This document shows, piece by piece, positions 5,944-25,000 of a stretch of 29,290 nt of DNA. The DNA is from a virus, in the IMG/VR virus record IMGVR_UViG_3300047382_000256, positions 1 to 29,290 of that record. One strand, written 5' to 3'. The position numbers were made by a program, and so were the translations under genes. How positions within the stretch are numbered: position 1 is the first letter of the stretch; every line of letters starts with the position of its first letter. The notes below the pieces were generated by a model. It was given only the letters and a program-made list of their open reading frames with translations. It searched no databases and was not told the DNA's origin.

Positions 5944-8900
5944 TTACACGTTGTATTGGTAATTTGCGAACAATATATATTGTTCGTTACCGTTGTTATT
6001 TGTTTGGTCGATTATATATCTATCAAATTCAAAATTAATTTTTGTTTGGTCAAATAAATTGTTAGTTATTGCATTTCTAATATTTAGCATTATATTTGCA
6101 CCTTCTCCTGGTTTACAGAAACATACAGGAATTGCAGTAACATAATCTAATTCCTGTGGAAATGTATTTGCCTGTGGAGTACGCATCCATAACGGTAAAT
6201 ATTCTCTTTCATCCTTGCCAGTTTCTTGTATTCGACTTCTCATGTTATCTATATTAACAATATACTTTTTCTGATCTCTAAAATCACTTGCTCTTATTGC
6301 TGTATTATCTGCTTTTATAGTATTTGTTTTAGGTCTTATTCTATATGGTTCGCTATCAGTAATCCCTAACTCTAGTTCTACATCTGAGCCGTCTCGTAAT
6401 TCAATTTCAAAATCATTATTGTCAACATCAACAGTTACATTAGAATCTCTTGTTATAACTATAAGATCGTCACCATTCGGAATAACAAACTTAACTGTGT
6501 TTCTACCATAAACAGGCAGTTCTTGAAATCCTGTGCCTGTATTAGTAATGTCGTCCTTTGTATCGTACTGTATACTATCTGTAGTTATAGTTTCTGTAGT
6601 AGAAGCTGTAAATGATTTTCTTGCTTTTCCGTTTATAGGTTGTGACGGATCTATTACTTCTAGATAAATTGCTTCATATATTACTTCATTAGTACCCGGC
6701 TGTTTTGCTTCTGCTATTTTAAAATCACCAATTTTAAAATTAGACTTTTTATGATTAAGAGCTGTTGCAGCAACAAAATTAGCAATATCTTGAGTTTCAA
6801 TGCCTGCATATACAAGCATTTTTATTGTAGTTTGTATACCAAATTCAGGATCGTCTGGTCTATAAATTTTATTATTTGGAAAAATTTTAGGATTACTTAC
6901 AAAACTAGTAAAACTTTGACGTTGTCTCGGTTCTAACAAAGGTTTTACATATATGTTACTATATCTAATTTTGTCATCATCAACTACAGTTATTTTAAAT
7001 TCTTTAGTTACAGCACTATAACCAAATCTATCTTTTGCTTCTACTGTAAAGACAAAATCTCTATCAAATGTTGAACTAGTAGGATCTAAACTATCAAATA
7101 CTGTAGAATAATTATCAAATGTAGTTAATCCTAACCCTTTATCATTTGCATATTGTCTAGGTTTACCAATAATGTCTCCATCTAGATTTAATCTCATTCC
7201 GTTAGGTAGTCTTCCAGAAATCAGTCTATATATTAAATTAGTATCCGGAACAGTAGTAGTTGCATTTAATTTAAATGTACTAACAAAATTAGCTTTTATA
7301 TTTCCTAAATCACGTTCAGTTAGAAATTCTATGGTACTATCAATTTCGCCTATTATTCTTATATCAAATGTTTTATCACTAAATGGTAAGTCTACAATTT
7401 CATCTTGTTCAAGAACTTTAATTAGCTTTGTAAATGAATCACGTCTGAAAATAGATATACTTATATCTGCACCAGTAGTAATATTTCTTAAAAGTCCTGG
7501 AGTTTCTTCTATATTACTTGTAATGTTAACTCTATCTTCGTTATCTCTGTATATAACAAATGATAGATTTGTTGTCTTCAAATATTTTTTTACTAGTAAA
7601 TTATTTCTACTATTTGCCGTAGATGGCATTCTTAAACTCCAGAGCTGAGCTGGATCTGCAGGATAAACATCTGTTAAGTAAATGTTTGTTTGATACTGCG
7701 GAGACAACCTTTGTAATGCACCTATTTCAAAATCCATTTGTAGTCTTTGTTCGAATATATTTCTATTTACAGTTTCACTAAGTTCTGCACTTGTGTTTGA
7801 TATAAAACTCCATTTTGAAGAATCAAAATCAACTATTGGATTTCCTTCGCTATCTTTTATAATAGCACCATTATCGTCTTGTTGTGAAACAACTGTGTGT
7901 ATTCTTGTAGGATCGCCGAATAGATCTAAGTCCGTACTTGATAGTTGATAGATTGCTCCATTGTAATATGCATAATCGCCTAGTATAAATTCCTGACCTA
8001 CTTTTAAATTTAGAGATGTTTCTTCTATTAGAATAGCACTACTATCCTTCATTTTAATTCTATATTCTAGGTAAGGTAAAATATCCTTTATTTCATATTT
8101 TTCAACAGCATTAAAATTTAAAAATCTACCTAAGTATCTTGTTTTCTCAGTTTCAGATAAACGATTTACAAAAAAGATTTCGTCATTAATTACTGCGCTT
8201 TGGCTTGTAATTAATCTAATCTTAGGAGTTACTGATCTATCTAAAGTTATTAAATCATAAGAACTATTACGTCCGTCAACTTTTATGATTTCGTATTCTT
8301 TATCATTAATTCTAATTACTTCATTTCTTAAAGATTCTAAATCATCTACTCCGTCTTCTAAGCCTCTTGGTAATTTTGCTACTTTTACATTATTTCTTCC
8401 TATTAATGTATCTTCATCAAATGTACCTATTACTTCAACTGTTCCAGTATCTGCTTCAAATCTTGTTGCTCTAAGTGTAAATTTGTAAGAGTTTGTTATT
8501 GCCGGTTGATACGGAACTCGCCCTGCAATTTCTCCACTGCCTGTATTTAAAGTTAACCCCGGAGGAAGTAAACTAGGAGTACGGTCAGGATTGAAATCTA
8601 ATAATTCGTAAAATACAAAACCTGCAAGTGTATCGCTTTCAATTATATCTGTATATAATGTAACGTAGTTATTTGCTCGTTTAAATCCAAGATCGCTCGG
8701 TGTAAGCCATACTGGATTTCTTAAGTGTGTATTATCTGCTGTAAATACACCATCAGCTGCTTGCATGATCGTATTATCTGCTCTAAGATAGTCGTCCCCT
8801 ACAAGATATATTATAAATTCTCGTCTTACCCAACTATCACCATCTGTAACAGTAACAGCAAATGAATAATATCTATTTAATTTTTTTGGTATTTTTGGTT

Positions 8901-10509
8901 GACCTGCATTGTCGTAACCTAGTATATCGTAATAATAACTACTAAATCCAAAATCACTTTTTATACTAAAATCAGTTATAAAAGTATCATATGCTTCGTT
9001 ATCATATCCGCCTATATTTCCTATTCTATCTAATGCTAATAAAGGTTCTACAACGCCTGTAATTTTGCCATCTTCGGATAATGACAAGCCAGGCGGAAGT
9101 TCACCGTCACCGTTTGCAATAAAATATTCTAACTCATCTCCTGCTGGTAGATCGCTATCTATTGCAGATAACTGAAAATCTACAAGTGCATTATCTAAAA
9201 TATAAAGTGTATTATTAGATCCTACTTGTAGTCTTCCTTCATTTGTAATCCATACTGGATCGTCGGGCCCTACAACATTTATAATAAATGTTCTGTCGTC
9301 TATAATGCCGTTATATTTTGCTCGCAACACAAATTGATACGATGTATCTCGTTCTACTTCGAACGGAGTACCAACTAAATTATTGCCTTCGATTCTAGTT
9401 CCTGCCGGAAGAGTACCTGATAGTAATTCTACACTAGGATAAATGTCATCAGTTACAGGTAGTGCAAATATAACTGGCATTCGTTCAGCTAAATTAGCAA
9501 CTACTGTACCGCTACGAACAGACCATAACGATATAATATCCGCTGTGCCTATTCCTGCTGTTCTTTGTTGTTTAGATTGAGGACCTATTACATAAGGATA
9601 AGCTGGTTCGACTAACCCGTTGTCTTTAAATGTTAAAAAATATGCGTAAGTTCCGTTAGGATATTCTGGAGTTATACAATATCTACCGTTGTATTCATCA
9701 AGTGTACTTAGAGTAGAAACGTATTCATAGTCTTCTACAAATGTACCTAGTGTAAAATTTCTTTCTTCATTATTAATTCTATAAGTATCTGTAATTTTAT
9801 ATCCGTTAGGTCTATGATCATCGTTATCTCTTAAACGATAAGCTGACGGTGTTCTTATTGGCCTTGATAACGGCTCGAGTGGATCGTCATATCCGAAAGG
9901 TCCATAAATAGGATAACCGTCAAACGCATAACCTACAATTTTAGAATGTCCGTCTTGATGGCGCATAAAATCATTACCGTAACTATTACTACCATAGTAT
10001 TCGTTTTTTTGGTATATTTTACGTTCTCTAGAATATACTGTTGGAACAAACGCACCAGTGACATATCTATATGCACCAGTTTCGTCTATATAGCCACTTG
10101 CTAAATCACCTTTATAAACATCACTGAATACCGAAATGTCCCAGTTTAATTCATCCGGCGGCTTTGTTGCACTGTTAAATAAAATATCATTATTCTTTGA
10201 TGTGTATATTAATACTCCATTAGTTGCAATACCTATTGGTCCCTGTTCTACATTTTGAGGATTAGTACTATTTCTGCCGCCACGATAATTAAATGTAAGA
10301 TCGATACTTTTAGTTTGTATGTATGTTCCTAACGCCCATCCAGATCTTTCCGAAACACCATCATTATTTAAAGGATTACCTGCTTTTGCCGGATATGGAT
10401 CTCCATCTGAAACAATTCTTATATTGTTTTCATCTGATGTGATAGTTGTACTACTAGGATATATTCCAGAGTTATTTACAATTCCTGTGTCTTTAGGATT
10501 AAAAGACAT
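5944..10509 (-). CDS. Large virion protein with YHYH and putative-Ig (He_PIG) domains
   Basis: A 1521-aa protein, probably part of the tail or an adhesin. A YHYH-type domain spans about residues 184-310, with KIVGYAFDGYPIYGPFG at 190-206 and YCITPEYPNGTYAYFLT at 277-293. Four putative-Ig (He_PIG-like) modules follow, each with an LP.G..L...G.I.G.P motif: about 355-415 (GTLPAGTRIEGNNLVGTP), 455-570 (LPPGLSLSEDGKITG), 630-690 (LLPPGLTLNTGSGEIAG) and 1090-1180 (RLPNGMRLNLDGDIIGKP). Between and after them are long unassigned stretches. The C-terminus has a CFC motif (C1463, C1465) and ends in a beta-rich FANYQYNV. No signal peptide is seen. It lacks the N-terminal module of its neighbours. An excellent AAGGAGG ribosome site precedes it. 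Confidence 0.85.
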   Translation of the reverse strand: MSFNPKDTGIVNNSGIYPSSTTITSDENNIRIVSDGDPYPAKAGNPLNNDGVSERSGWALGTYIQTKSIDLTFNYRGGRNSTNPQNVEQGPIGIATNGVLIYTSKNNDILFNSATKPPDELNWDISVFSDVYKGDLASGYIDETGAYRYVTGAFVPTVYSRERKIYQKNEYYGSNSYGNDFMRHQDGHSKIVGYAFDGYPIYGPFGYDDPLEPLSRPIRTPSAYRLRDNDDHRPNGYKITDTYRINNEERNFTLGTFVEDYEYVSTLSTLDEYNGRYCITPEYPNGTYAYFLTFKDNGLVEPAYPYVIGPQSKQQRTAGIGTADIISLWSVRSGTVVANLAERMPVIFALPVTDDIYPSVELLSGTLPAGTRIEGNNLVGTPFEVERDTSYQFVLRAKYNGIIDDRTFIINVVGPDDPVWITNEGRLQVGSNNTLYILDNALVDFQLSAIDSDLPAGDELEYFIANGDGELPPGLSLSEDGKITGVVEPLLALDRIGNIGGYDNEAYDTFITDFSIKSDFGFSSYYYDILGYDNAGQPKIPKKLNRYYSFAVTVTDGDSWVRREFIIYLVGDDYLRADNTIMQAADGVFTADNTHLRNPVWLTPSDLGFKRANNYVTLYTDIIESDTLAGFVFYELLDFNPDRTPSLLPPGLTLNTGSGEIAGRVPYQPAITNSYKFTLRATRFEADTGTVEVIGTFDEDTLIGRNNVKVAKLPRGLEDGVDDLESLRNEVIRINDKEYEIIKVDGRNSSYDLITLDRSVTPKIRLITSQSAVINDEIFFVNRLSETEKTRYLGRFLNFNAVEKYEIKDILPYLEYRIKMKDSSAILIEETSLNLKVGQEFILGDYAYYNGAIYQLSSTDLDLFGDPTRIHTVVSQQDDNGAIIKDSEGNPIVDFDSSKWSFISNTSAELSETVNRNIFEQRLQMDFEIGALQRLSPQYQTNIYLTDVYPADPAQLWSLRMPSTANSRNNLLVKKYLKTTNLSFVIYRDNEDRVNITSNIEETPGLLRNITTGADISISIFRRDSFTKLIKVLEQDEIVDLPFSDKTFDIRIIGEIDSTIEFLTERDLGNIKANFVSTFKLNATTTVPDTNLIYRLISGRLPNGMRLNLDGDIIGKPRQYANDKGLGLTTFDNYSTVFDSLDPTSSTFDRDFVFTVEAKDRFGYSAVTKEFKITVVDDDKIRYSNIYVKPLLEPRQRQSFTSFVSNPKIFPNNKIYRPDDPEFGIQTTIKMLVYAGIETQDIANFVAATALNHKKSNFKIGDFKIAEAKQPGTNEVIYEAIYLEVIDPSQPINGKARKSFTASTTETITTDSIQYDTKDDITNTGTGFQELPVYGRNTVKFVIPNGDDLIVITRDSNVTVDVDNNDFEIELRDGSDVELELGITDSEPYRIRPKTNTIKADNTAIRASDFRDQKKYIVNIDNMRSRIQETGKDEREYLPLWMRTPQANTFPQELDYVTAIPVCFCKPGEGANIMLNIRNAITNNLFDQTKINFEFDRYIIDQTNNNGNEQYILFANYQYNV

Positions 10510-10516
10510 ATATTGG

Positions 10517-10523
10517 CCTCCTT
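10517..10523 (-). promoter_or_regulatory. Strong ribosome binding site for the 1521-aa gene
   Basis: Minus-strand AAGGAGG, a full match to the anti-Shine-Dalgarno, is placed 7 nt before the ATG at 10509. It overlaps the stop codon of the 239-aa gene. It is the best ribosome site in the window. Confidence 0.7.
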
Positions 10524-11241
10524 ATATAAATGAACCATTATCGATAATTATCGGATCAGGAGAAACTATTGTTCCTTGGTCTACCTCTGTTTTTGCTACT
10601 AAGTATTCTAAGATATTTGAAACTGTACTTGTAATATTTCCAAAGTCAAAAGATTGTGAAATATTTCCTACTGCATTGTCTAGATCTCTAATATCTATCC
10701 CCCATACATTGCCCTGCATGTTACCATTAAGGAACCCTGTAATACTAGATGCAGTTATGCTATTAACAGCAGTTATATCATTACCTTGAGCATCTAATGT
10801 GCCGCCTAATTGAGGTGTTGTATCTGTAACTAATGAAGAACTTGTATTAGAAATTGTTAAAGTATCATTTACTATTGATGTTGTAATTCCTTCGCCACCG
10901 TTGACGTTTAAAAGACCTGGGCCTGAAAGATTTAAACTACCACTATCTGAACTAAAAATTAATTGTGTTATTCCAGAACTAGCATTAATTGTAACACCTG
11001 TATCTGTAGAATTTAGTGTTACATTAGCTCCTGGAACTAATTTTTTAAATTGTAAATCGTAATTTAATCTTTGTGCAAAAACACCTTCTCCAACGTTACC
11101 TAAATTTGACGCTGTTGTTTGTTCGTCATCACGGAGGTCAAGTTCCTCAAAATTTTGATTAACTTTAATAAAGGCTTCTCTTAAATCGTCACCTGTACCG
11201 TCGTTTGCTATATTTCCGACATTAATTAATTGAACTGCCAT
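10522..11241 (-). CDS. Short tail-fibre-like protein (239 aa)
   Basis: Begins with the shared tail module: NVGNIANDGTGDDLREAFIK and VNQNFEEL at residues 7-34. It continues with beta-rich, low-complexity fibre-like sequence rich in T, S, N and G, including LGGTLDAQGNDITAVNSITA, a pattern common in phage tail fibres and their trimer-forming shafts. It is likely a fibre or fibre-adaptor sharing its docking site with the 209-, 568- and 2935-aa proteins. A late-type promoter and GGAG lie just upstream, and it ends 12 nt before the 1521-aa gene. Confidence 0.8.
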   Translation of the reverse strand: MAVQLINVGNIANDGTGDDLREAFIKVNQNFEELDLRDDEQTTASNLGNVGEGVFAQRLNYDLQFKKLVPGANVTLNSTDTGVTINASSGITQLIFSSDSGSLNLSGPGLLNVNGGEGITTSIVNDTLTISNTSSSLVTDTTPQLGGTLDAQGNDITAVNSITASSITGFLNGNMQGNVWGIDIRDLDNAVGNISQSFDFGNITSTVSNILEYLVAKTEVDQGTIVSPDPIIIDNGSFI

Positions 11242-11251
11242 TTTGATTCTC

Positions 11252-11267
11252 CATTTATAGTATTTAG
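11252..11267 (-). promoter_or_regulatory. Late promoter boxes (CTAAATA and TATAAATG)
   Basis: On the minus strand CTAAATA (11261-11267) is followed closely by TATAAATG (11252-11259), then GGAG and the ATG of the 239-aa gene at 11241. CTAAATA is the late-box variant I associate with marine T4-like phages. Geometry favours it, since the second box would place the transcript start downstream of the ribosome site. The boxes overlap the stop codon of the protease gene. Confidence 0.5.
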
Positions 11268-14032
11268 CTAACTATGATCTGTCCGCCCATGGAGTCATCC
11301 ACACTTGATTGATAATAAAATGTTCCTATGTAGCTAGGTGTCCAAACTATATTTCCGCTTGTTGATCCTTGTCCTGGTATTCCTAGTACTTGATTATCTG
11401 TTCCTGTAGTAGGCTGAGTTTTAATAAACAAAGGATTACCAGCAGTATTAATATTAAGTATTAGCTGATCACCGTAATCTAAATTGATAGTTAAATTATC
11501 TCCACTTAACGATCCAGTAGAGTCTGTACCAGTTATAGTATAACCGTTTGCAATACTTATATTTCTACTAACTCCGCTAGGTCTATTTGGACTTGTGTCA
11601 GATATGTCTATGTCTATACTATCGCTACCATTATCTAGGCTTAGTGTCATAGTTTCTAAACCCTCTGTAGTTAAATCTGGAGTAATTAAAAAGTTTTGAG
11701 ATGCACTATTTGAATTAATAGTAAACTGTCCATTTAAACTTGCAAAGTTCAAATCATTAGATGATACTCCGGTTATTGTATAATTTATAATATCTCCGTC
11801 ATCTTTTTCTGTAGTTAATAACGATACTGTAACACTTGTACCTTCTGGTACTGGATTTATATCTGCACTTAAAGAAAATGTAGGTGTTTGACTTGTATCA
11901 TTTATAATTACATCTATTGTACTTGCACCGTTATCTAATGCAATAGTAAATGTTTCAGTTGTTTCTGTAGATCTATCAGCAGTAATAGTAAATGTTTTAT
12001 CAGCTCTGTTTCCGGATATAGTAAACACACCTGTTAAATTTTCTCCATTAATATCGTCGCTAGATATACCTGTAATAGTATAAGGTATCGTAGTGCCGTC
12101 GTCGACAAAGTTTGTAATTAATGTAATATCAAATGTTTCATTCTCATTTACACTTACTTCTGATCGATAAAGCTGATAGGTAGGAGCATTTGCTCCTGTA
12201 GAGCTATCTAAAATAAATACCCCTGCGATAGCACTTCCATTGTCTAAAGATATTACAAGGGTTTCATTTCCCTCTGTAAGTATATCCTCTACTGTATTCA
12301 ATGTAATTGATGCTGTATTGTTATTCACAACAAATACACCTGTTAAATCTTGTCCGCCTATGTCTTCGCTTGTAACGCCACTAATTGTAAATGGCACATT
12401 AGTTCCATTTACAACATTTGTAGTATTAAGTACAATTGTAACTGACTGGCCTTCGGATATTGTTTCAGGAGTTACAATTATATTATATGTTTCAGTATCT
12501 GGAAATCTAACATCAATTTGTTTTGAACTATTAAATTTATTAAAGATAAACTTATTGTTTCCACCTAATAATGATCTTTCATTATTATAATCATTGTCTA
12601 GTCCACTATCAAATAGCTGATTTGTTTTTATTGTTCTGTCTATAAAATCTTTTGCTTGTGCAGGCGTTGCACCTGGATTCAATTGCAAGAACAAAGTAAG
12701 CATACCTGCTACTTGAGGCGATGCCATACTAGAACCACTTATATTCATTTGCTTCCAAAAAGAATTACCAAATTGATACGCACCGGTAGTATAAAGATTT
12801 TGATTACTACTTGAACTCATTATGTTTGTTCCAGGTGCATAATACATAACTCCGGGACCTGTTTCTGAACTAGCAGCTTTTTGTTCTAGTCCTCCTGAAT
12901 GTATTTCACTATCTACATTACCTATAATATATGCTTCGTCATCATAGGGAGAACCACCTCTATTATAGTATAGTTGACCTGGATAAATGTTACTCGTAAA
13001 ATAATTATCATAATCTAAGCCTCCTGGAACATCAATTTTTTGAAATGTATTACCAGCAGCTATACAGACATGAACACCTGCATCTATTAATTCTTGTATT
13101 TCAACATCTATAGCAGCAACTCTTGTAGGATAAGCTATTCCTGTACCGTCATCTGCTCCGATCATACCTTTTGTTGCATCTCTAGATGATCCAGACCAAG
13201 GAGTACCTCTATATACTCCACCTGTAACACCTGAAAAATACGAACTGTATCCCCAACTTAAATTTACAACTGTTGGTCGTCTATAACCAGTAGTAGGCTC
13301 AATAGGTTTATTAAGATGCCAGTTTTTAATAAGATCAAAACTACCTATTGCCGGAATGCCAAATCCAGGATCAGATGGTCCTTGTAGTCCTTGTATTTTC
13401 ATAGAATAGATATTTGCGCCTTTGGCCCACCCAAATATTCTTCCTGCAACTATTCCTGCAACGTGTGTTCCGTGTCCGTCATAATCTGCATAAAATCCCC
13501 CAGGCTGGGTGCCTAATATTCCAGATTCGGTATACCAATTAACACGTTGTAATCTTTGTTCTCCGTTATAATCATTCCATTCTTCGTGAGCAAATTGTAT
13601 GCCACTATCTTGTATAACTATATCTACACCTGTTCCGTCTATAGTATAATTATAGCCGCCGGGCGCTGTATTACCACTATATAAATTTGTAGCATCATTT
13701 ATTCTGCGCAATCCCCAGTTTACAAATGCACCAGCATCACTAGTTGTTTTATCAAATACTGTTTCTTGTATTTTTTTATGCGTAATTATAAGATCGTCTC
13801 TATCTTCTGGATTTACTTCAACTGCAACTACTCTTGAATCATTTTTTAATTCCGTTGCTTCTGCATCTGTTAATGCATAGTGTGTAATCCTATAAGAACC
13901 GGGTCTAGCATTAGATACATCAACAGTTCTATTTGGTATTGAACCTGCGCCCGTTGATATTACCATATCTTGATTAAATTGTTCTGCATCTACTCCGCGA
14001 TGTAAACTTACAATGTATTCTTTTTCACTCAC
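11264..14032 (-). CDS. Virion-type subtilisin (S8) protease with Calx-beta-like repeats and a cupredoxin-like C-terminus
   Basis: A 922-aa multidomain protein. Residues 1-85 resemble an I9-type inhibitor/propeptide (EYIVSL start, DSRVVAVEVN end). Residues 105-500 form a subtilisin domain with an intact catalytic set: D142 in QDSG, H187 in GHGTHVAG, oxyanion N328 in IAAGN and S435 in SGSSMASPQVAG. Three Calx-beta-like repeats follow at about 519-610, 622-713 and 724-813, each with EG/EN..(T)..L.T..V..GT..P(Y/F)TI(T/S)G(V/I)(S/T)S and a late E(T/G)...LDNG. Residues 820-922 resemble a cupredoxin, but the copper ligands are replaced (YYQSSVDDSMGG where C and H are expected). No export signal is seen, and the gene sits among fibre genes, so a structural protease is likely. 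It starts with GTG; GGAG lies 10 nt upstream. Confidence 0.88.
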   Translation of the reverse strand: MSEKEYIVSLHRGVDAEQFNQDMVISTGAGSIPNRTVDVSNARPGSYRITHYALTDAEATELKNDSRVVAVEVNPEDRDDLIITHKKIQETVFDKTTSDAGAFVNWGLRRINDATNLYSGNTAPGGYNYTIDGTGVDIVIQDSGIQFAHEEWNDYNGEQRLQRVNWYTESGILGTQPGGFYADYDGHGTHVAGIVAGRIFGWAKGANIYSMKIQGLQGPSDPGFGIPAIGSFDLIKNWHLNKPIEPTTGYRRPTVVNLSWGYSSYFSGVTGGVYRGTPWSGSSRDATKGMIGADDGTGIAYPTRVAAIDVEIQELIDAGVHVCIAAGNTFQKIDVPGGLDYDNYFTSNIYPGQLYYNRGGSPYDDEAYIIGNVDSEIHSGGLEQKAASSETGPGVMYYAPGTNIMSSSSNQNLYTTGAYQFGNSFWKQMNISGSSMASPQVAGMLTLFLQLNPGATPAQAKDFIDRTIKTNQLFDSGLDNDYNNERSLLGGNNKFIFNKFNSSKQIDVRFPDTETYNIIVTPETISEGQSVTIVLNTTNVVNGTNVPFTISGVTSEDIGGQDLTGVFVVNNNTASITLNTVEDILTEGNETLVISLDNGSAIAGVFILDSSTGANAPTYQLYRSEVSVNENETFDITLITNFVDDGTTIPYTITGISSDDINGENLTGVFTISGNRADKTFTITADRSTETTETFTIALDNGASTIDVIINDTSQTPTFSLSADINPVPEGTSVTVSLLTTEKDDGDIINYTITGVSSNDLNFASLNGQFTINSNSASQNFLITPDLTTEGLETMTLSLDNGSDSIDIDISDTSPNRPSGVSRNISIANGYTITGTDSTGSLSGDNLTINLDYGDQLILNINTAGNPLFIKTQPTTGTDNQVLGIPGQGSTSGNIVWTPSYIGTFYYQSSVDDSMGGQIIVS

Positions 14033-14047
14033 AGACTGTTATCTCCG

Positions 14048-17000
14048 TTATGCTATAGTTGCGTTCTGGTTTGCAGTATTCAACCAACCATTTGTAGTGT
14101 ATAGTAATGTTATGTTATCATTAACATCGCTAAATGTAATCGTTGTTCCAGTTGCTAATGTAGTTGGAGTAACTATTGCATCACCACCATCTACTACCAT
14201 TGTAATTATTTTTATTTGTCCTAGTACACCGTCTGCTAGTGTGTATGCATCATCTACGCCAGTTGTGGTAATTTCAGTTACAAGAGTATCTATTCCAATT
14301 GCACCTGGTCCACTAATTTGTTGTACATCGCCGACTATTATGTCTGTAGGTCCTACAAATTTTCCTGCTGTTATAGTTGTTGATTCAATACTATTGTTAT
14401 CAATAATACTAGTTCCGTTTTCGTAATTAGCTACAATTTTACCTGCTACACCGTCAACTATTAGACTACTATCATCACCAAAGATTGAACCTTTTATATC
14501 TGCGTTTATTGAAGCAGGAATAGCAGTTAGATAACCTACTGTAGCGTGGTTGCCCCAGCTTAACGCTGTGTCTGCATTGTCACCTTGTGCGCTAGTTGCT
14601 GCATCAGTAATTCCATAACCTGCAAGTGTAGTTGGAGTACTAGAAATTAGTGACCATGATATATCAAAACCTGTTATGCTTCCAGAACCGTCTCCGGTTA
14701 ATGTTGTAAAGCCACTTATAGTGCCGCCTGTGTCACCGGTAACATTTAAGAAGCCACTTATAGTGCCGCCTGTATCGCCAGTAATGTTTGTAAACTGTGT
14801 AATATCACCGCCAGTGTCGCCTGTAATTGTTGTAAATCCACTTACTGTTCCGCCAGTGTCGCCAGTGATATTTAAGAAGCCACTTATGGTACCGCCTGTG
14901 TCGCCTGTGATATTTGTAAACTGTGTAATATCACCACCGGTGTCACCAGTAATGTTTGTAAATGCAGTAATGTCTCCACCTGTTGCACCAGTAACATTAA
15001 GATATCCTGATAATGTTCCTGTTCCAGCACCAGTGATAGTAGTAGCTTCAACTGTATCTGCAACAAATGTTTCTGTACCTATGCTCCATTTGTCGTCTGT
15101 CTCGTTCCATACAAATTGTTTATTGTCTTCGTCGCCACGCTCAATTTCAATTCCACCGGACTCTGTTGGACTTGCTCCTGTGAAGTTGCTATTTAATAAT
15201 ATAATATTATCAGCAATATTAACTTCTTCTGTATTAACTGTTGTAGTTGTGCCTTGTACTGTTAAGTTCCCTTGCACAATAACTTCGTTTTCAAATGTTG
15301 CTGTACCTGTTACATTAGGAGTAATAATTTTACCAGACACTCCGTCAATAATAGGAGTACTATCGTCAGCAACAACACTGCCTATAAGTGAGCCTTCAAA
15401 TACTCCTGTATGCAAACTCACCCATGCACCGCTTTGATAAAATTGAAATCTATTCTCAGATGTATTATAGATAGTATCGCCACTTTGCGTTATAATCTGA
15501 TTAGCTACAGTCTGATTCATATTTACAAATTTAAGAGGACCACCTTCTATTTTTGCTCTATTGCCAACTTGTAGTATTAAGTCAGTGGCACTTTCTAGTG
15601 TACCAGTACCTGTACCACTTAATACAAAGTTTTCTGTTTCAACAGTAGTCGCTGTAACTGTATCAATACTAAAATTAGATGCTCTTAAAGTTACAAAGTT
15701 ACCTTCATCGTAACGTCTTGCAACTGTACCGATCTTTCCTGATTCATCTAAGAAAGGAAAAACATCGCCTGTTGTTTCTGTATTTCCTAATGTTACTTTA
15801 TCACTTGCGTTAATTTGAATAACTGTACCAGTAATAGTACCGATAGCTGTTGGAAATTGTAAGTTACCTGTAATACTATTACTAACACCGTCAATAATAA
15901 TAGTTGAATCGTCGCCAAAGAAAGATCCTCTAAAGTTACCTGTAGCATCTTCAAAGTTTGCACTTATAATTGATCCTCCGTTGAGATCTAGGTTACCTGT
16001 TGTAACACCTAAATCGCCTATAACATGTAATTTATAACTACCTGCTACACCGGTATTGTCGCCAAACACACCTGCGTTTGCTTTGTGTGTTTCGCCAACA
16101 GCATTACCTGCTAAATCTCCTGATAATGTTGTTGCTTCAATGTTGTTTATATAAGCATTACCAAACGCTGCTCCGGATCTACCAACACTACCATTACCAT
16201 TTACGTCTGGATAGATATCGTTATTGCCTTCTACTCTAACTTCGTTGACTTCTAATCTTGTTGTTGTATCAATATAGATAATATCACCAGCTAGTGTACC
16301 TTCACTATCTTGATATGTAATTTTATAACCTGATTCTACAGTAAGTGTATCTGTTTTATTTGAACTAAATCCTGTAATGTCACCTGCAATACCTGGTTCC
16401 CAAACTTGTGTTGTTTCATTCCAAACAATTGTTTGTCCATTTAATGCACCATTTTGTGTAAGTCTTGCTGCGTTAATTCTAGAGTTAAGGTGATCAACAA
16501 GTAATGTACTATCTTCTCCAAATACACTACCTTGTAGGTCACCTCTGTTAATAACTTCAACAGTTACTAATCCATCTTGTATAAATTCAGGTATTACTGC
16601 TCTTAGATCTGTTGCTTTAATATAGCCTTCATCATTAGTTAAATCACTTACAGCTAAAGGTCTACCTGAAATTACAGCATAAGGAATTTCGTTTGTAGTA
16701 GCATCAAAAACAGTAGATCCATTATTACCTTTTATACTACCTTGAAAGAAGTTTCCGTACACTCCGTCAAATCTATTAGCAGGACCGCCAACACTTGCTC
16801 CAAAATCTGTGTCAGGTAGAATACTTTCACTTACTTGTAGATTTGTTACAAATAATTCTGCTTCTGCATCGCCAAATTCGTAAAATTCTAACCCTGTTCC
16901 ATCTGCTTTAACTCTTACAAATTTTCCTTGTGCATCTGTATATGCTGTAGGAGTGTCGTCTAAATCTATAAATTCACCAGGTTGTAACTGATTTCCGTTA

Positions 17001-17155
17001 ATTGTAATTGCTTGAGCATTAATTGTACCTAGTGCGTCAATATTTTGTGCATCAACAATGCTAACATTGCGTAAATCTAGATTATCACCTGATGGTATTT
17101 CTTTGATCTTATTACCATCTGTAGTGTCTAGTATTAGGGGAAATCTATTTGCCAT
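14048..17155 (-). CDS. Large tail fibre protein with 14-residue tandem repeats (1035 aa)
   Basis: Starts MANRFPLILDTTDGNKIKEI at the ATG at 17155, which is the best spaced from an AGGA ribosome site; an ATG at 17161 and a TTG at 17164 are alternatives. Seen in order: four copies of the (K/Q)GS(V/I)FGDDS(T)LLVDGV module (near residues 208, 409, 591 and 888), a shaft segment NLTVQGTTTTVNTEEVNIAD near 630, eight 14-residue repeats of the form GDITQFTNITGDTG at 713-824, one degenerate WGNH element near 868, and a beta-rich C-terminus ending TTNGWLNTANQNATIA. These features are typical of long myovirus tail fibres. It shares the GDDS module with the 568-aa fibre but has no copy of the usual N-terminal module. 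An ATAAATA box lies upstream. Confidence 0.85.
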   Translation of the reverse strand: MANRFPLILDTTDGNKIKEIPSGDNLDLRNVSIVDAQNIDALGTINAQAITINGNQLQPGEFIDLDDTPTAYTDAQGKFVRVKADGTGLEFYEFGDAEAELFVTNLQVSESILPDTDFGASVGGPANRFDGVYGNFFQGSIKGNNGSTVFDATTNEIPYAVISGRPLAVSDLTNDEGYIKATDLRAVIPEFIQDGLVTVEVINRGDLQGSVFGEDSTLLVDHLNSRINAARLTQNGALNGQTIVWNETTQVWEPGIAGDITGFSSNKTDTLTVESGYKITYQDSEGTLAGDIIYIDTTTRLEVNEVRVEGNNDIYPDVNGNGSVGRSGAAFGNAYINNIEATTLSGDLAGNAVGETHKANAGVFGDNTGVAGSYKLHVIGDLGVTTGNLDLNGGSIISANFEDATGNFRGSFFGDDSTIIIDGVSNSITGNLQFPTAIGTITGTVIQINASDKVTLGNTETTGDVFPFLDESGKIGTVARRYDEGNFVTLRASNFSIDTVTATTVETENFVLSGTGTGTLESATDLILQVGNRAKIEGGPLKFVNMNQTVANQIITQSGDTIYNTSENRFQFYQSGAWVSLHTGVFEGSLIGSVVADDSTPIIDGVSGKIITPNVTGTATFENEVIVQGNLTVQGTTTTVNTEEVNIADNIILLNSNFTGASPTESGGIEIERGDEDNKQFVWNETDDKWSIGTETFVADTVEATTITGAGTGTLSGYLNVTGATGGDITAFTNITGDTGGDITQFTNITGDTGGTISGFLNITGDTGGTVSGFTTITGDTGGDITQFTNITGDTGGTISGFLNVTGDTGGTISGFTTLTGDGSGSITGFDISWSLISSTPTTLAGYGITDAATSAQGDNADTALSWGNHATVGYLTAIPASINADIKGSIFGDDSSLIVDGVAGKIVANYENGTSIIDNNSIESTTITAGKFVGPTDIIVGDVQQISGPGAIGIDTLVTEITTTGVDDAYTLADGVLGQIKIITMVVDGGDAIVTPTTLATGTTITFSDVNDNITLLYTTNGWLNTANQNATIA
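14684..15019 (-). repeat. Eight tandem 42-nt repeats (14-residue units), with a 126-nt higher-order repeat
   Basis: Within the 1035-aa fibre gene, eight in-frame units of 14 residues follow G(D/T)I(T/S)(Q/G)F(T/L)(N/T)ITGDTG. The first and last units are the most degenerate. Units 3-5 and 6-8 repeat the same order of types (DITQFTN, TISGFLN, T(V/I)SGFTT), giving two 126-nt blocks at 14810-14935 and 14684-14809. The DNA is conserved as well as the protein, which indicates recent duplication. Confidence 0.88.
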
Positions 17156-17179
17156 TCTCATCAATCCTGTTGTTATACA

Positions 17180-17203: not shown

Positions 17204-18910
17204 TTATAATGCTGCTATTCTAGTTTGAAAATCTGCAAAGTCGATTGCCGCTGCTACTTCTGTTTTAAGTGTTGCTAAGTCAATTGTTTCTGCTACAAGA
17301 TAATCAGTACCTGCTACTGCTGCACTAATATTTCCTGCGCCATCTGCTTTTACAATACCTGTAATTGCACCTACTACTGGATCAGTTTCAGTAAAGCTAG
17401 TAAGATAACCTGCTGTGCTATGATCGCCCCAGCCGTATGCTGTGTCCCAATTCGCACTATCTTCAATGTTTGCTTTGGGTATATTACTATTAACTCCATC
17501 TACAAGTAATGTACTGTCATCACCAAACACACTACCTTTAATGTCACCGTCATGTGATGCGCCAGCTACTTGATAGCCTGCACTTGCATGATCTCCCCAA
17601 CTAAATGCTGCATCCCAATTTGCTTCATTAGTACCAGCTGCATAACCTGCACTTGCATGATCGCCCCAACTAAATGCTGCATCCCAATTTGCACTATCTT
17701 CAATGTTTGCTTTTGGAATTATACTATTTACAGCATCAACTAATAGTGTTGAATCATCAGCAAACACACTACCTTTTAAATCTCTTGGTGCCGAAATAGC
17801 AGTATCGACTTCTGCTTTTGTATAAGTTGTTGCTTGTGGTGCATAACCAGCTGCACTATGATCTCCCCATGCAAACGCTGTATCCCAATCTGTACTGCTT
17901 TCTACGTTAGCTTTTGGAATTACACTATTAATAGCATCTACAAGTAGAGTACTATCATCACCAAACACACTACCTTGTAAATCACCTGTGTTATTAACAT
18001 CAATTGTTAATGTGCCGTCTAGTATATCTGCTTGTACAAGGTATCCTGCTGCTGCGTGATCACCCCATGCATATGCTGTATCCCAATTTGTACTATCTTG
18101 CACTACTGCCTTAGGTATTACGCTGTTCACTGCATCAACTAGTAGTGTTGAATCGTCACCGAACACACTACCTTGTATATCGCCAGTGCCACCTTCTACA
18201 ACAACTTTTTCGCCACCGAAAGTAATTACTCCGCCGTCATTAGTAATTTCAACACCACCTAGGTTAATCGTGCTGCCACTTAGATACAGATCACGGAACT
18301 TATGTGTCATGCTACCTATATCGTATGCTTCGTTTGCATCAGGAATAATATTACCTTTAACAGTTCCGTCTAAGTTAATTGCTTTACCTACACTGTCTAC
18401 CATTGAAGTACTGTCATCAGCAAATACACTACCTACAATATCTCCAGTTACATTGCCAGTTACATTGCCTGTAAGATCTCCTGTAATAGAAGTAGCAGTA
18501 ATTGTATTTGCATCTACAGTTGTAGTATCAACAGGACCAACTACTTTGCCTGCAATACCATCTACCATTACACTCGAGTCATCTGCAAAAACACTACCAG
18601 TAGTATCTTGTCTTTCTGCAGGTGGACCACCGTTAATTAACAGTGTACCATTAGCAGTAAGTTCAATCCTGTTTTGGTTAAGGTATATAAAGTCTTTTAC
18701 ATATACATCTTCCCAACGCTTGTCTTCACTGCCTAAAGAACGTGTGCCGTCAGCATCTGGTATAAGATCTGCTGCTGTGTTGCTAGGATCAGTATTTTGT
18801 CCTGCATAAAGTTCGTCAAAATTATTATTAATTTTATCAAAAGCTGTACGTAAAGGATCGCCGTCTCCTTTGTTAGGAGTACTACCTGTATTAATTGTCT
18901 GTTTTGCCAT
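17204..18910 (-). CDS. Tail fibre protein with GDDSTLLVD and WGDH repeats (568 aa)
   Basis: Residues 1-36 are the shared tail module (GDGDPLRTAFDKINNNFDEL). The body carries six copies of the GSVF(A/G)DDSTLLVDAVNS module (near residues 105, 160, 247, 313, 390 and 459) and five copies of (N/D)WD(T/A)A(Y/F).WGDH..AGY (276-290, 342-356, 409-423, 432-446, 489-502). Two of the latter are directly adjacent. Segments RSLGSEDKRWEDVYVKDF and YDIGSMTHKFRDLYLSG match the fibre 'G...RW..VY' motif common in phage adhesins. The C-terminus is a probable helix (ETIDLATLKTEVAAAIDFAD). It is probably a long or side tail fibre. AGAAGGA precedes the ATG; no late box is seen, so it may be co-transcribed with the 2935-aa gene. 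Confidence 0.85.
   Translation of the reverse strand: MAKQTINTGSTPNKGDGDPLRTAFDKINNNFDELYAGQNTDPSNTAADLIPDADGTRSLGSEDKRWEDVYVKDFIYLNQNRIELTANGTLLINGGPPAERQDTTGSVFADDSSVMVDGIAGKVVGPVDTTTVDANTITATSITGDLTGNVTGNVTGDIVGSVFADDSTSMVDSVGKAINLDGTVKGNIIPDANEAYDIGSMTHKFRDLYLSGSTINLGGVEITNDGGVITFGGEKVVVEGGTGDIQGSVFGDDSTLLVDAVNSVIPKAVVQDSTNWDTAYAWGDHAAAGYLVQADILDGTLTIDVNNTGDLQGSVFGDDSTLLVDAINSVIPKANVESSTDWDTAFAWGDHSAAGYAPQATTYTKAEVDTAISAPRDLKGSVFADDSTLLVDAVNSIIPKANIEDSANWDAAFSWGDHASAGYAAGTNEANWDAAFSWGDHASAGYQVAGASHDGDIKGSVFGDDSTLLVDGVNSNIPKANIEDSANWDTAYGWGDHSTAGYLTSFTETDPVVGAITGIVKADGAGNISAAVAGTDYLVAETIDLATLKTEVAAAIDFADFQTRIAAL
17405..18085 (-). repeat. Five WGDH repeats interspersed with GDDSTLLVD modules
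   Basis: In the 568-aa fibre gene the 15-residue element (N/D)WD(T/A)A(Y/F)(A/S/G)WGDH(A/S)xAGY occurs five times. Copies 1, 2, 3 and 5 each follow a GSVFxDDSTLLVDAVNSxIPKA module by a few residues, so a composite unit of about 65-80 residues is repeated. Copies 3 and 4 are nearly identical at the DNA level and only 23 residues apart, which looks like a recent local duplication. Confidence 0.8.
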
Positions 18911-19045: not shown

Positions 19046-22000
19046 TTATTTTCCAACTAATACTTCTACAGTGCCACGTTCACTGTCATCTTTAGAACTA
19101 ACAGCTTTACCTATTATTGTACCAATTTTAGGTTCATTGTTAACAACAGCATAACCTGGTATAGCACTTGTAACAAGTATATCACCTTTTTGTACTTTAC
19201 CTATAACATTACACGGAACTCTACCTTGTAGTGCTACTCCGGCAACATTATCACCTTTTAAATGACTGTTCATTAAGTGTGCTGGATTTGTTGTTACAAC
19301 ACCTGCTACTCTATGATCTTCTTTTATATTAGTTGTAGTAACTTCTTCATCACCGCCTAATACTAAAACTGTGCCAGGTGCATACTTTTCATCTGCTAAG
19401 TAATTTTCAGCTAAGTCAGCGTATAATGCTTCAGTTGCTGTTCCGTTGAATACACTAGCATATACTGTATTATATTTCTTTGTTGGCGCACCTATATTAT
19501 AAATGTTATCAAAGTCAGGAACAACACCGTCTTTATTAAAGATAAACGGTGTAACACTTGTACTTGTGCCACTATCGGATGCAACAATAGCAATTTGTCC
19601 TGCTGTTGTTTTACCTGTATTTCCACCTATTGCAATACCTGTACTTGCAAGTCCTTTTTCTCCTGGTGCTTCTATAAAGCTACTGTAGATCCAATCTACT
19701 GCGAGATTACTTTGACCACCTAATACTGAACTTGCTTGAAGTGTACTTTCTGTAACACCTGTACCGCCTATATTAACACTACCCGGTATCTCAAGATCTG
19801 GGAATGTAGGAGGAACATATCCTGGATCGCTTGGAGATCCTCCTGTTCCTGCAGAACCGCCAGTCGCTGTAAGTATTGTACCTTGTCCTGGTGTTTTGAG
19901 TAGTAGCTCTGTAGTATCTAATGATAATACTTCGTAATTACTATCCCCTCCGAGTATAAGACTATTAACTTGAATACTTCCGTCGACATTAGTTTTAACA
20001 ATACTGTTAGGCTCGCCTGCTACTGTTACATTACTAATACCATAAGTACCAGTACCGGTTTTTATTAGTGCTTCACCTGCGTCTGTTCCAGAAGCAATTT
20101 CACTAGTGAAGTCACCGTCTTCTAGACCGCCACCTTCACTTATAACTGTAGCAAAAGGAATTGCACTTACTGAACCATCGCCTGCTACGCTTCTACCTAA
20201 AACATTATCAGTTGAAATATGTTGTAATTTTTCAGGAGCAACACCTGTTGATGTATCTGAACTTGTTTGTAATTCAATAAATCCGTTTGTTGAAGTAAAT
20301 TCTGTATCTTTAAACGATGCAACACCTAAATCTGACTGACTTATGCCTGTTGCATTTGCTCTTAAACTTGCTGCATTTAAATCTAATTTACTTTGTGCAA
20401 TTGCTGCTGTTGGGCTAACATCTGCATTAACAATAGTTTCAGTTGCAAGTTGAATACTAACTTCGGTATATCTATCTGTTGGATTTCCACTTCCGTCTGT
20501 AGTAACAAATCTTTCAGTAGTTATAACAACATCACTATCTGCGCTAGGAACACCATTTGCCCATTCTGATAATGGTCCGTCTATACAAGGGCCATTTACT
20601 ACACCTGATACACTTACAGTATCTTGTCCTACAGGAGCACCTGAACTAAAGTCTCCGGTTAATGGTGTATAGGTAATGATAATAATGTCACCTTCGAAAC
20701 CTTGTGTTTCTTGTACATCAACAACAGTACCAGTTGCTCCAGAAAGGTTACCTGATATTGTTTGTCCTGGTTTATACGCTGCTCCGGCTCCTGACGTTGT
20801 AATTAAATCTGCGTCGATTATAATTTTCTTTAACGATGTTGATACTAATAACTGTCCTTCATCATAATCATTAATATCAACGTCTCTTAGATCTGGAAGT
20901 GTGTCATTATTACCTTGACTATTATCTACATAAGCTTTATTTGCAGTATCACTATCTGAAACTGGTGTACTAATATTCGTTATAGTATTACCAGCAGCAT
21001 TTATATCTGCTGTCATAGGCACACTACCGTTTGGAGCAAGCACACCTGGCCCAATTTTATTACTAATTGCTGCACCAGTTTGATCAAATCCTAAACGTCT
21101 ATTAACATACCCACGTACAGCACTTTCTGTTGGTACTGTATCTGATGCGTTATCAGTCATTGCTGTATCTGTTGAGAATTCAGTAACAACAACACCACGT
21201 TTAAAGCCTAAGCCGTCAACATCGGAAAGCGCAATACTTGCTGAGAAACTAACAGTACCAGTACCCTGATCCACACTAAAGAATCTACCAACTCTAAAGA
21301 TACCGTTTTGGTCGGTACTTACATAGAACACACGCCCTTTACCACGTTCGTCAACTTCATTTGACTGATCCGGCGCTCTCGGCAAACCAAAGATAACATT
21401 TGGATAGTTACTTGTGTTAAATCCACCTGTACCAACATCTAAGAAGTCGTGTCCTGTAGCTCTACAGGTAGAAATTGCAATAGTAACTGTACCCGGTGAT
21501 CCTGCTTGTAGACCACTTCTAAGTATCGGAACAACAGTTCCTAATACTAATGTTGAAGCAAGCCCTGCTGCTCTTGCAGGATATTGTAAGTCACTTACAT
21601 CTGCAATATCAACAATACCGTAATCATCTGATTCTGACGGCGTAGCTTGTATTTCGTGATCGCCTGATACAGGGTCAATTTGTACGCCTCTATAATTTGA
21701 TATAGTATGTTTTTTACCATCCCATGTTGTAATCATAGGAAGTTCGCCTGTACCATTAAAATCACTAGGCCTAAAATCACCTGAAGTTGTAATATTATTA
21801 TTAATACGACGAATTTCGTTTTCTTCGTATATTCTAACTACAGCAATAGTTGTATCGCCTGCTGTATTACCTAGTGTAGTTCCGCCTGTAAGAGGATTAC
21901 TATCTAGATCTAGTACTGTACCTTTTGTATTTTGTGCATTAACTGTATCAACAACAAGTCTTACGTAATCATAAGTACTATCAAATCCTGCTAAAGTAGT

Positions 22001-25000
22001 GTCTTCTGATAGTTCATTACCTAATGCATCCGCAGTTAAAAATGAAATACTTCTATATACAGTATCTGGATTTTCTCTAAAGATAACCGCAGTAGATGGA
22101 CGAATTGTTAAAATATCTGGACGAGCAATATCTTCAAAGATAAATGTTTGGTTATTTCTAACTTGTACATAAGTACCATGTGGTATGCCGCCTGTTTCTA
22201 AAATACCGTTTTGACTAAACTGACCGTCACCTGTTGCAAAGTTAACTTTGATAATTTTACCATTGTATCTAGGCGTATCGTCAGTTATTGCAATAGTTCC
22301 AGTGAATGTAAAAATTTTAAATCCGCCATTACTATCAACTTCGGTTGCTGTAATTACAACATCATTTGCCGGAGTTGCTCCGCCTAGGTCTGCACCACTA
22401 ATAGTAATAGTATCACCTACTTCGTAATCTTCTCCTAATAATACACCAGTTACACTATATCCATCTGTAATTGTTTTAGAAACTTTAAATGTTGCGCCTG
22501 TACCTGCACCTAAATTAATACCTGCGTAGGTTGTAGATATACTATCACCAAATCCGGATATTTCTCCTACTATTGTGCCTGTGTCGACAACGTTTGCAAT
22601 CTCGTATCTAGCAAATATATCTTTGTTAGGATGATAGATATCAAATTCACCTCTATTACTCGGTAAATATTCAAAATCATAAAGGTGTCCAAATAATTGT
22701 TCTTCATCATTTGCATATCCTGAAGTATCAACTTCACTAGGTACACTACTTGCACCTAAAGCACCACTTGTTGATCCTGTAAGTTGATTTGTAGTATCAA
22801 ATATGTTAGATACACCTGTTAGATAAATTGTTCTTGTATTACTTGAAATTATTACAGTACCAGATGCACCTGTTGATGCCTGTGTAATTGTTTCGCCTTC
22901 AACTGTAGTAACATTATCAGAACAAGTTAAAATAATATCAGCTGTAAATGTTTTTGCAGGATTGTTCATATCATCACGTGTTGAAATTCCGTCTGGAATT
23001 TCATTTGGATCCGAACCTTCTGCAACTAGACCATAATCACCATAACAACTTGAACCTGTAAGAGATCTAATCTCAGAACCATTCTTAGCATAATACGATG
23101 CATGGCAGTAATATGTAAACATACTAACCATCTCTGATAGCGCACCATTCACAACAACTAGACCGTAACCTAGATCGTTAACTTGTGTAAAGTCGTTACC
23201 TAACATACTTCTGTTACCAGCAGTTTGTAGTGTGATAGCAATTGGAGCATCAATACTTTGTACTGTTCTAGCAACAATTAAAGCTCTGTTATTACTAATA
23301 TCTACATTTGCTGATACTAGTGCTGCACCTACTGATAATGAAGTTAAGTTTGGTGTAACTTCAGCTGGTAATAATTCTAAAGTATCAAGATCAATTACAT
23401 CTTTAATAATTCCAACTAGATCACTTACTATTGTTGCTTCTGTGCCCGTTGCAGGATTTGCTGTTACAGGCTGTCCTGCTCTTGTACCTTGTACAACTTC
23501 GCTTACAATAGTTTGCAAATCAGTATATGCTGCTACAGTAGCAGTTTCTTCATCTGTGTTACCTAACTGTCCAGCTGTGCCAACAAAGTAAGATCTTGCA
23601 TTTATTAATGTTCCTGAATTACCTCCATAAAGAACATCATATGAAAGTGCATCAACGATATATCCTACATCTCTTTCACATTTTGTACTATTATATGTAA
23701 GACTTGGATAATTTGTAGTAATAAAACTTGTTACTTGAGCTTTAATGAATGCTTTGTTTGCTTGTAGTATTACACTTGCATCGTTTGCATTAGTTGTAGG
23801 TTGTGCCGCTGGCGTCGGGAAAGTAAGTGCATCTGCTGCGGTATCTGTACTTACTACACCGTTGTTTAAAATATCTACAACTTCGTCAAATGCTGCTGCT
23901 GCTCTTGTTTCAGCAGTAACATCTGCATCAACTGCTGATAACGCAAGTACTTCACTTTTAGCAAAATTAATTGCGGCGGTTGTTTGTGCTAATTGTTCTG
24001 CTGTAACAACATCTGCATTTGCACGTTGATATGCTAACCCTGCTGTAACTGCTCTATAGTTTGAACCTAATGCAATATCTAACCCAACTGCATCTAAAAT
24101 TAATCCAGTGTCTCTAGCACATTTATCTTCATTAAAATCAAACGGAGCAACAGAATCTAAGTCTACTCCAGTTTGTAAATTACTTGTTGTACCTGTAAAG
24201 CCTTGTCCTACACCTAGTGCATCAGGGTTACTATTTTTATCTAATAGTAGTACCGCAGTACCTTCGTCAGGGTCGTAATTTATTACTGCATTAACTTGGA
24301 ATCTTCTACCATCAACATAAAATGGGCAAGGTGTTTCTGGTCTACGTATATAAAGACCTTGTGGGTCTTCAGGACTACCTAAACTTTTTACCTGCAGGAC
24401 AAATGGATCAGGAGTTGCAGTTACATCTGGAACCGGACTTCCGTCTGCAGGTCTACCAGTTGATACAACTTGTACTGCTGTATTTCCAGTAAATGCATCT
24501 ACAAACATACCTCCTGAAAATACTTGCTTGTTTTGCGATCTACTAAAACTTGAACCAGTTTGGATGTATGGAGATTTAGTTAGAACTTGTCCATATGGAT
24601 CAAGTGTACATAAAAATCCGCCATGTCCTTGTACAGTCATGTTACGCAGAATTGTAGCATCGTTCATTAAGAACACATCCATTTCGTCATTAGGTAACGG
24701 TGGATTGTAATCGTCGTTGAATGCAAAATTTATTGTATTAATAAAATTTAATGACATTGCTAGTGCAGTTGCTTCAGCTTCGCCATTAAATAAATCTGCT
24801 TGAGGGTATTCTATTAAATTTACATCACCATAGATGGTTGTAGGTTGTGCATTTGCAAATAGTCCTTGTAGAATAGTATAAATTTGATTTATGCCATCCT
24901 CAGTAGCTCCATTTTGTGAGCCATCTTTTGGCAATGCACCGTAATAATATTCACCCTGTGCTTCTAAAACATTTTCATTTCCGCCGAGTACAAAATCTTT

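Follow-up and report, generated by a model that had tools for sequence, protein, structure and literature searches.

A subtilisin-type protease with a conserved propeptide in a tail-fibre gene cluster of an IMG/VR virus

The protease gene and its family

The window analysed here is a whole virus record from IMG/VR (IMGVR_UViG_3300047382_000256; 29,290 bases), and the subject of this work is a gene on its minus strand that encodes a subtilisin-type (S8) protease of 922 amino acids (aa). A sequence-only reading of the same DNA had described an S8 protease in a tail cluster, and this stands, with the open reading frame (ORF) at 11264-14032 as claimed; what that reading missed is that the gene family is already known and that the propeptide is unusually conserved. 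The start of the gene is bounded because the third codon upstream is an in-frame stop. The gene and the parts of its product on which the argument turns are the following, those marked catalytic or oxyanion being placed from alignments.

11264..14032, minus strand: gene of the 922-aa S8 protease (phrog_9158 / T4-GC 292), GTG start at 14032, stop at 11264-11266
14043..14046, minus strand: GGAG, a likely ribosome-binding site, read from the sequence 11-14 nt before the GTG
13802..14032, minus strand: I9-like propeptide domain, residues 1-77, as conserved as the catalytic domain
13775..13801, minus strand: low-confidence linker, residues 78-86, predicted local distance difference test score (pLDDT) <50, with the probable self-processing site at its end
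12524..13774, minus strand: proteinase K-type S8 catalytic domain, residues 87-~503
13607..13609, minus strand: catalytic Asp142
13472..13474, minus strand: catalytic His187
13049..13051, minus strand: oxyanion Asn328
12728..12730, minus strand: catalytic Ser435

The Pfam family Peptidase_S8 (PF00082) matches residues 133-481 (E=5e-24; 85.5 bits against a cut-off of 21.8) and is the sole Pfam family common to all 62 members of the alignment used below. In PHROGs, the phrog_9158 profile covers residues 2-922 of the window protease at E=3.4e-91, and another family, named 'protease', matches it at 2e-29. Through phage records phrog_9158 is tied to T4-GC 292, which is assigned in P-SSM2 and S-SSM7, and members of phrog_9158 / T4-GC 292 are found in P-SSM2 (PSSM2_297), S-SSM7, S-CAM4, S-H9-1, and S-SCSM1 (SSCSM1_228). 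The gene family is thus already known and annotated in marine cyanophages. One search returned at least 584 related stretches in IMG/VR, and of 49 hits in phage records 17 were opened, the remainder being mostly near-duplicates by name. Two hits to Acinetobacter phage MD-2021a (H48 and H49) were dropped, the genes around H48 resembling a bacterial chromosome, and H47 was dropped as a repeat-region match. A record named as an Acinetobacter phage (L102; CAKLQH020000012.1) has surroundings like those of a bacterial chromosome (transporters, cysteine desulfurase) and is probably mislabelled. One scan of bacterial and archaeal genomes gave, among the matches listed, distant relatives only (23-40% identity in the best segment).

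The window protease was modelled with AlphaFold2 on a 62-sequence alignment that includes the window (mean pLDDT 86.3, predicted template modelling score 0.53, so that the relative positions of the domains are uncertain). The closest solved folds are ProteinT (Z 36.9; 1.8 Å over 274 residues), aqualysin I (Z 36.6; 1.9 Å over 272 residues), and proteinase K (Z 34.8); PCSK9 is also among the structural neighbours at Z ~31, ranked under these three. Among the predicted viral structures of BFVD, cyanophage S8 proteins come first (ACG-2014h, ACG-2014e, S-SCSM1), followed by the 'Extracellular serine proteinase' of Agrobacterium phage Atu_ph07 (E=7e-31 by Foldseek), with giant-virus subtilases lower.

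Conservation of the propeptide and the active site

The putative propeptide of the phage enzymes is as conserved in sequence as the protease itself, unlike that of their cellular relatives, and this is the main new result. Averaged over pairs in the 62-row alignment, identity comes to 0.556 for the propeptide, 0.527 for the catalytic domain, and 0.382 for the linker. The control consisted of S8 relatives from bacterial and archaeal genomes, of which 74 of 87 ORFs were usable; the others had no clear D/H/S or fewer than 135 aa upstream of the Asp. At equal catalytic identity the ratio of propeptide to catalytic identity is 0.99-1.06 for the phage proteins, whereas in the control it is 0.56-0.58 at catalytic identity below 0.70 and 0.67 in the 0.70-0.85 bin, the main weakness of the control being that its propeptide limits are set by distance from the catalytic Asp and not by a domain match. 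Alternative stretches at catalytic identity 0.3-0.7 gave 0.53-0.60 in the control (five choices) and 0.93-1.12 in the phage proteins (three choices). A second phage set, drawn regardless of the propeptide (77 of 81 ORFs usable), gave 0.86-1.09. Most of the control proteins look secreted, with a hydrophobic stretch (mean hydropathy >=2) in 69 of 87, against none of 93 phage homologues with such a stretch of 10 aa in the first 60 aa; the comparison is rough, as the stretches searched are of unequal length and the N-terminal region of the cellular proteins is longer and variable. The lack of an export signal noted from the window alone accordingly extends to its homologues.

A propeptide as conserved as its protease is probably not discarded, and it may hold the enzyme in a clamp within the tail; in this respect the phage propeptide appears to behave like a permanent part of the protein. 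In the AlphaFold model, residues 4-73 follow the order beta-alpha-beta-beta-alpha-beta, which we take to be that of I9 propeptides, so that the propeptide-like N-terminus proposed earlier agrees with the predicted fold. The I9 assignment is weak by sequence. The Pfam I9 family stays sub-threshold (E=0.13 in the window; E<=1 in 19 of 47 members, the best at 0.0034), and the propeptide profile reaches 8c4z_A, apparently the propeptide chain of ProteinT, at E=1.8 only, below two unrelated chains. The first residue of mature aqualysin and of mature proteinase K aligns to residue 87 of the window protease (85-89 in the other close rows), which makes self-processing near 86/87 the natural prediction; the earlier guess of a cleavage site near residue 85 fits this, residues 78-86 being the low-confidence linker.

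The catalytic residues D142, H187, N328, and S435 lie at the positions claimed and are intact in all 93 aligned proteins (the window, 84 IMG/VR loci, and 8 phages). They are likewise intact in 25 of 25 proteins of a divergent set, 10 of which lie outside the first 93 and which takes in second S8 genes directly upstream in L024 and L041. In these two loci the second gene (L024 4703-6758; L041 5037-7212) is 25-26% identical to the protease in the matched part, and the four catalytic residues are intact in both copies. As one pattern of the first IMG/VR search contained Asp142, a second draw was made with a pattern free of catalytic residues (A6, residues 220-300). It covers 80 loci, the best 80 of 504 relatives; each of the IMG/VR draws keeps its best 80, with very distant relatives outside this coverage. 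Of its 81 ORFs, 79 have D/H/N/S complete and the other two end at contig ends, and there is no substitution at any readable catalytic position. The idea of a pseudo-enzyme was therefore rejected, and homologues that consistently lose the catalytic triad, looked for in the sets of 93, 10, and 81, were not encountered. The window protease appears catalytically competent, as had been supposed, and the conservation of the active site in a sample drawn without it is new here.

C-terminal modules and gene neighbourhood

Behind the catalytic domain the window protease carries four further modules:

12206..12496, minus strand: Calx-beta-like repeat 1, residues ~513-609
11897..12187, minus strand: Calx-beta-like repeat 2, residues ~616-712
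11597..11887, minus strand: Calx-beta-like repeat 3, residues ~716-812
11267..11569, minus strand: cupredoxin-fold domain, residues ~822-922, copper ligands H/C/H replaced by N/S/D

Modelled alone, the C-terminal 419 residues reach a pLDDT of 86.7. The top fold match of the repeats is to the tandem calcium-binding (Calx-beta) domains CBD12 of NCX1 (Z 10.7; root-mean-square deviation 9.9 Å over 196 residues), with a small margin over the complement, alpha-2-macroglobulin, and invasin rows that come next, at Z 8.5-10. The Pfam Calx-beta family (PF03160) does not reach its cut-off in the window (E=0.63; 10.5 bits against 27) and matches 2 of 62 homologues at E<=0.001. The description of three Calx-beta-like repeats agrees with the fold match.

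For the last 100 residues of the window protease there is no Pfam family match, and Copper-bind is found in 12 of 17 members of the cupredoxin family at E<=1; with the profile of this family, copper nitrite reductase is hit at E=5e-5 and plastocyanin at 8e-4. In the columns that presumably hold the type 1 copper ligands H, C, H, and M, the window reads N, S, D, and M, as expected of the copper-less domain described before. All four ligands are present in 14 of 17 cupredoxin rows, and H/C/H is lost in the window, L003, and L005. Seven close copies stand outside this count (L002, L004, L006, L017, L025, L061, and L063), of which L002, L004, and L006 end like the window protease. In a protease tree of 79 rows (proteins at least 95% alike removed) the window, L003, and L005 form one clade (support 100/100), nested in a 16-row clade (96/81) whose other domain-bearing rows keep the ligands by pattern; the label 'copper' that the pattern gave to L089 is probably false and was disregarded. 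Copper loss is not seen outside the clade to which the window belongs, and this lineage-specific architecture with copper loss is new here.

The same tree places long and short C-termini between sister proteases, for example L027 and L023. Altogether 58 of 93 homologues are shorter than 600 aa and consist essentially of propeptide and protease (L024 and L083 among them end at contig ends). Other endings are Calx-beta-like repeats, cupredoxin, LamG (S-SCSM1), and a weak esterase-type match before the cupredoxin (ACG-2014h), and Pfam AGS_C and Reeler match in a few long homologues. The esterase-type match (L012 7995-10919) is below its cut-off and lies between the S8 domain and a cupredoxin with full ligands. 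By eye, cupredoxin-like ends are also seen on the upstream proteins of L030, L042, L044, L047, and L059. The copper-less domain had been proposed as a binding or docking part, and this proposal is weakened: as the module is missing in 58 of 93 homologues, the ligands are full in 14 of 17 rows, and some fibre proteins end alike, it looks like an exchangeable tip module and not like a general virion anchor. A general docking part was rejected, as the copper-less trio is one clade and the C-terminal modules come and go between sisters.

The protease gene is surrounded by the following genes:

14048..17164, minus strand: 1038-aa upstream partner, repetitive and fibre-like by eye, ends 15 nt before the protease start
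17204..18910, minus strand: 568-aa tail fibre protein (phrog_9729), T4_gp9_10_N just under the Pfam cut-off
19046..27853, minus strand: 2935-aa protein with a T4 gp9/10-type N-terminus
10522..11241, minus strand: 239-aa protein with a T4 gp9/10-type N-terminus, directly downstream of the protease
5944..10509, minus strand: 1521-aa YHYH and Ig-domain protein, matching baseplate wedge and virion structural PHROGs

The flanking by fibre genes that had been noticed from the window holds, with tail-type genes on both sides, the 1038-aa neighbour itself being without a significant family match. It was followed over 85 loci including the window (3 without a matching gene call and 3 without an upstream ORF; ORFs were called simply and some loci are not independent of others). 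In 78 of 79 loci the upstream ORF has the orientation of the protease gene and lies at -38 to +56 nt, the downstream ORF is co-oriented in 78 of 81, and in S-SSM7, S-SCSM2R, Sf-FR1, and S-SCSM1 the protease and the upstream gene overlap by 1-4 nt. When 10 upstream proteins from different contexts were scanned, 8 matched tail PHROGs, that of L076 carried Mtd_N, and that of L015 matched none; the upstream protein of L030, scanned apart, has the Mtd_N tropism-determinant domain. Downstream, a gp9/10-type protein followed by a YHYH protein is a recurring order in the window's group. The setting is similar in annotated cyanophages, where genes for fibre or baseplate proteins stand next to the protease gene.

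The tail cluster is flanked in the window by genes for a GroES-type co-chaperonin and an iron-sulphur cluster biosynthesis protein (3741-4145 and 27866-28228, both minus strand). At 142-1014 (minus strand) lies a Class I fructose-bisphosphate aldolase (PF00274, E=3e-8), with relatives in 55 IMG/VR loci at 67-100% identity in the best segment, on contigs of up to 299,910 bases that include those of L002 and L004; in phage records only two unannotated Staphylococcus phage records have it. The aldolase seems to be a metabolic gene stably kept in this group of uncultured phages.

A cyanophage origin of the window's virus is unsupported, with psbA in none of the 37 longer contigs of the family, an absence that proves little because most of these contigs are fragments. 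The gp23 family is matched in 8 of 37 longer contigs and a tail sheath in 8 of 38 records including the window, 3 of them over the cut-off. Two large related contigs (L021 / G007, 236,751 bases; L085 / G032, 207,029 bases) are without a Pfam Gp23 match, and a tail sheath match is found in G032 and none in G007.

Possible roles of the protease and comparison with known systems

The presence of such a protease in virions is suggested by S-SCSM1, whose homologue SSCSM1_228 carries the record label '(virion protein)'. The whole record has 48 features labelled or named virion protein (16, 15, 0, 4, 13, and 0 by section), and in the available text of the S-SCSM1 paper 45 proteins are stated to have been found by mass spectrometry (PMC9602691). 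NMNAT, ORF213, and ORF214, which are named in that text, are labelled in the record, and a label is missing from the short tail fibre and from one baseplate wedge protein, so the label most likely means detection. For S-CREM1, 14 virion proteins were found, and the accessible part of the paper holds no statement on the protease (PMC9964418). An S8 peptidase, T4-GC 518, is common to two cyanophages and is given no role in the parts available (Sullivan 2010, PMC3037559); in what is available of PMC9004378, 'sheath subtilisin' occurs a single time, naming a gene in a figure legend; and the accessible portion of the S-CREM2 paper has no mention of a subtilisin or peptidase (PMC10665884). A literature search, mostly without subscription journals, gave no study on the function of a protease of this kind in marine phages.

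These observations are best explained by a self-processing virion protease, associated with the fibres and active at the host surface; we regard this explanation as about evenly poised between right and wrong. On this reading a protease of the proteinase K group that lacks an export signal would be produced in the cytoplasm along with the upstream fibre-type gene; it would fold with its I9-like propeptide and cut once near residues 86/87, and it would then be built into the tail with the propeptide still bound, as the conservation of the propeptide suggests. At the cell surface the clamp would be released and the protease may cut host surface proteins beside the binding site of the fibre, while the Calx-beta stalk and the cupredoxin-fold tip may hold it out and aid adhesion. 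It is tempting to speculate that in contractile-tailed phages the protease is spring-loaded, i.e., that the self-cut propeptide stays as a lock, keeps the enzyme silent in the cytoplasm and in the free virion, and lets it go only once the neighbouring fibre has made contact with the host. This is possible, if doubtful, and such a permanent working part would, if real, explain why the propeptide evolves as slowly as the enzyme.

Several points weigh against a protease that acts at the host surface. The ratio in the second phage set drops to 0.86-0.89 among closer pairs, virion presence comes from the record label of one homologue (with 48 features labelled against 45 stated), the upstream neighbour in the window is without a Pfam match or a significant PHROG match, psbA is absent as described, and the 58 homologues without added modules imply that these modules are not needed for the core role. 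Nothing separates host from phage proteins as targets, so that the proposal of a tail-borne protease, which the label of SSCSM1_228 and the fibre-cluster setting favour, leaves the choice between cutting host proteins and maturing fibres undecided. In the latter case the enzyme would act during assembly, trimming either the fibre encoded upstream or some other tail protein, and would be left over in the virion, in a maturation role comparable to that of prohead proteases for heads. The tight coupling to an upstream fibre-type gene and its overlap with the protease gene in four phages would suit such a role, as would the recurring gp9/10-type and YHYH order downstream. The upstream proteins are, however, of several kinds (collagen-like, gp9/10-type, Mtd_N), and their C-termini fall by eye into several classes, so that no common cut site is seen; adhesion-type modules on some homologues also suit a surface role better, and we consider maturation rather unlikely.

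Alternatively, so strong a retention of the propeptide could be a sign that the mature protein is kept inhibited. PCSK9 retains its bound prodomain and works without catalysis, according to the accessible text of PMC13276728, and by analogy the sole cut of the phage protein would be that of its own propeptide, which would stay bound and block the site, the finished protein being a structural or binding part of the tail. The conservation of the propeptide, unlike that in cellular relatives, and the rank of PCSK9 among the structural neighbours agree with this. If one cut in cis sufficed, on the other hand, some lineages might be expected to lose the triad, and none of those examined did; ProteinT, aqualysin, and proteinase K moreover outrank PCSK9 in fold. 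We hold a PCSK9-like role without cutting in trans to be improbable. More improbable still is a cytoplasmic or lysis-stage protease, for example one for host protein turnover, that lies in the fibre cluster by gene order only. The missing export signal and the many protease-only homologues are in line with it, but the S-SCSM1 homologue is labelled as a virion protein, the fibre-type neighbour recurs in several different genome contexts, and the C-terminal domains are of extracellular type.

A strictly conserved protein-cutting enzyme in a fibre cluster would point either to surface proteins as targets that these phages need to cleave or to a proteolytic stage in the assembly of the fibres. Cultured cyanophages carry the protease gene, which makes the question directly testable, and the propeptide result predicts that the propeptide is found in purified virions in an amount about equal to that of the enzyme.

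Phage tails carry enzymes that cut sugars and peptidoglycan. The closest systems to the one described here are the phages of phrog_9158 / T4-GC 292, which have the same propeptide and S8 core, the same catalytic residues, and the same place by fibre or baseplate genes, eight isolate homologues being 27-35% identical to the window protease. In S-CAM4, S-H9-1, and ACG-2014h the copper ligands are kept, whereas the window has lost them and adds the Calx-beta repeats; these find their best fold match in the Calx-beta domains of NCX1 / CALX but stay below the Pfam cut-off, a likeness by fold only. The likeness to the 'Extracellular serine proteinase' of Atu_ph07 and to other viral S8 proteins in BFVD is known from the fold match alone. 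With the proteinase K group (aqualysin I, ProteinT, proteinase K) the window protease shares the predicted fold, D/H/N/S, a predicted order of strands and helices in the propeptide that fits I9, and a likely single propeptide cut; unlike these it lacks a signal peptide and has ~140 extra residues in the catalytic region, a conserved propeptide, and a place in a phage tail cluster. With PCSK9 it shares the proteinase K-type fold and perhaps a propeptide that stays bound, but catalytic loss is not seen in the phage homologues examined. In Bordetella, SphB1, a bacterial autotransporter that acts on FhaB, is a subtilisin-type protease that stands at the surface beside a long adhesin.

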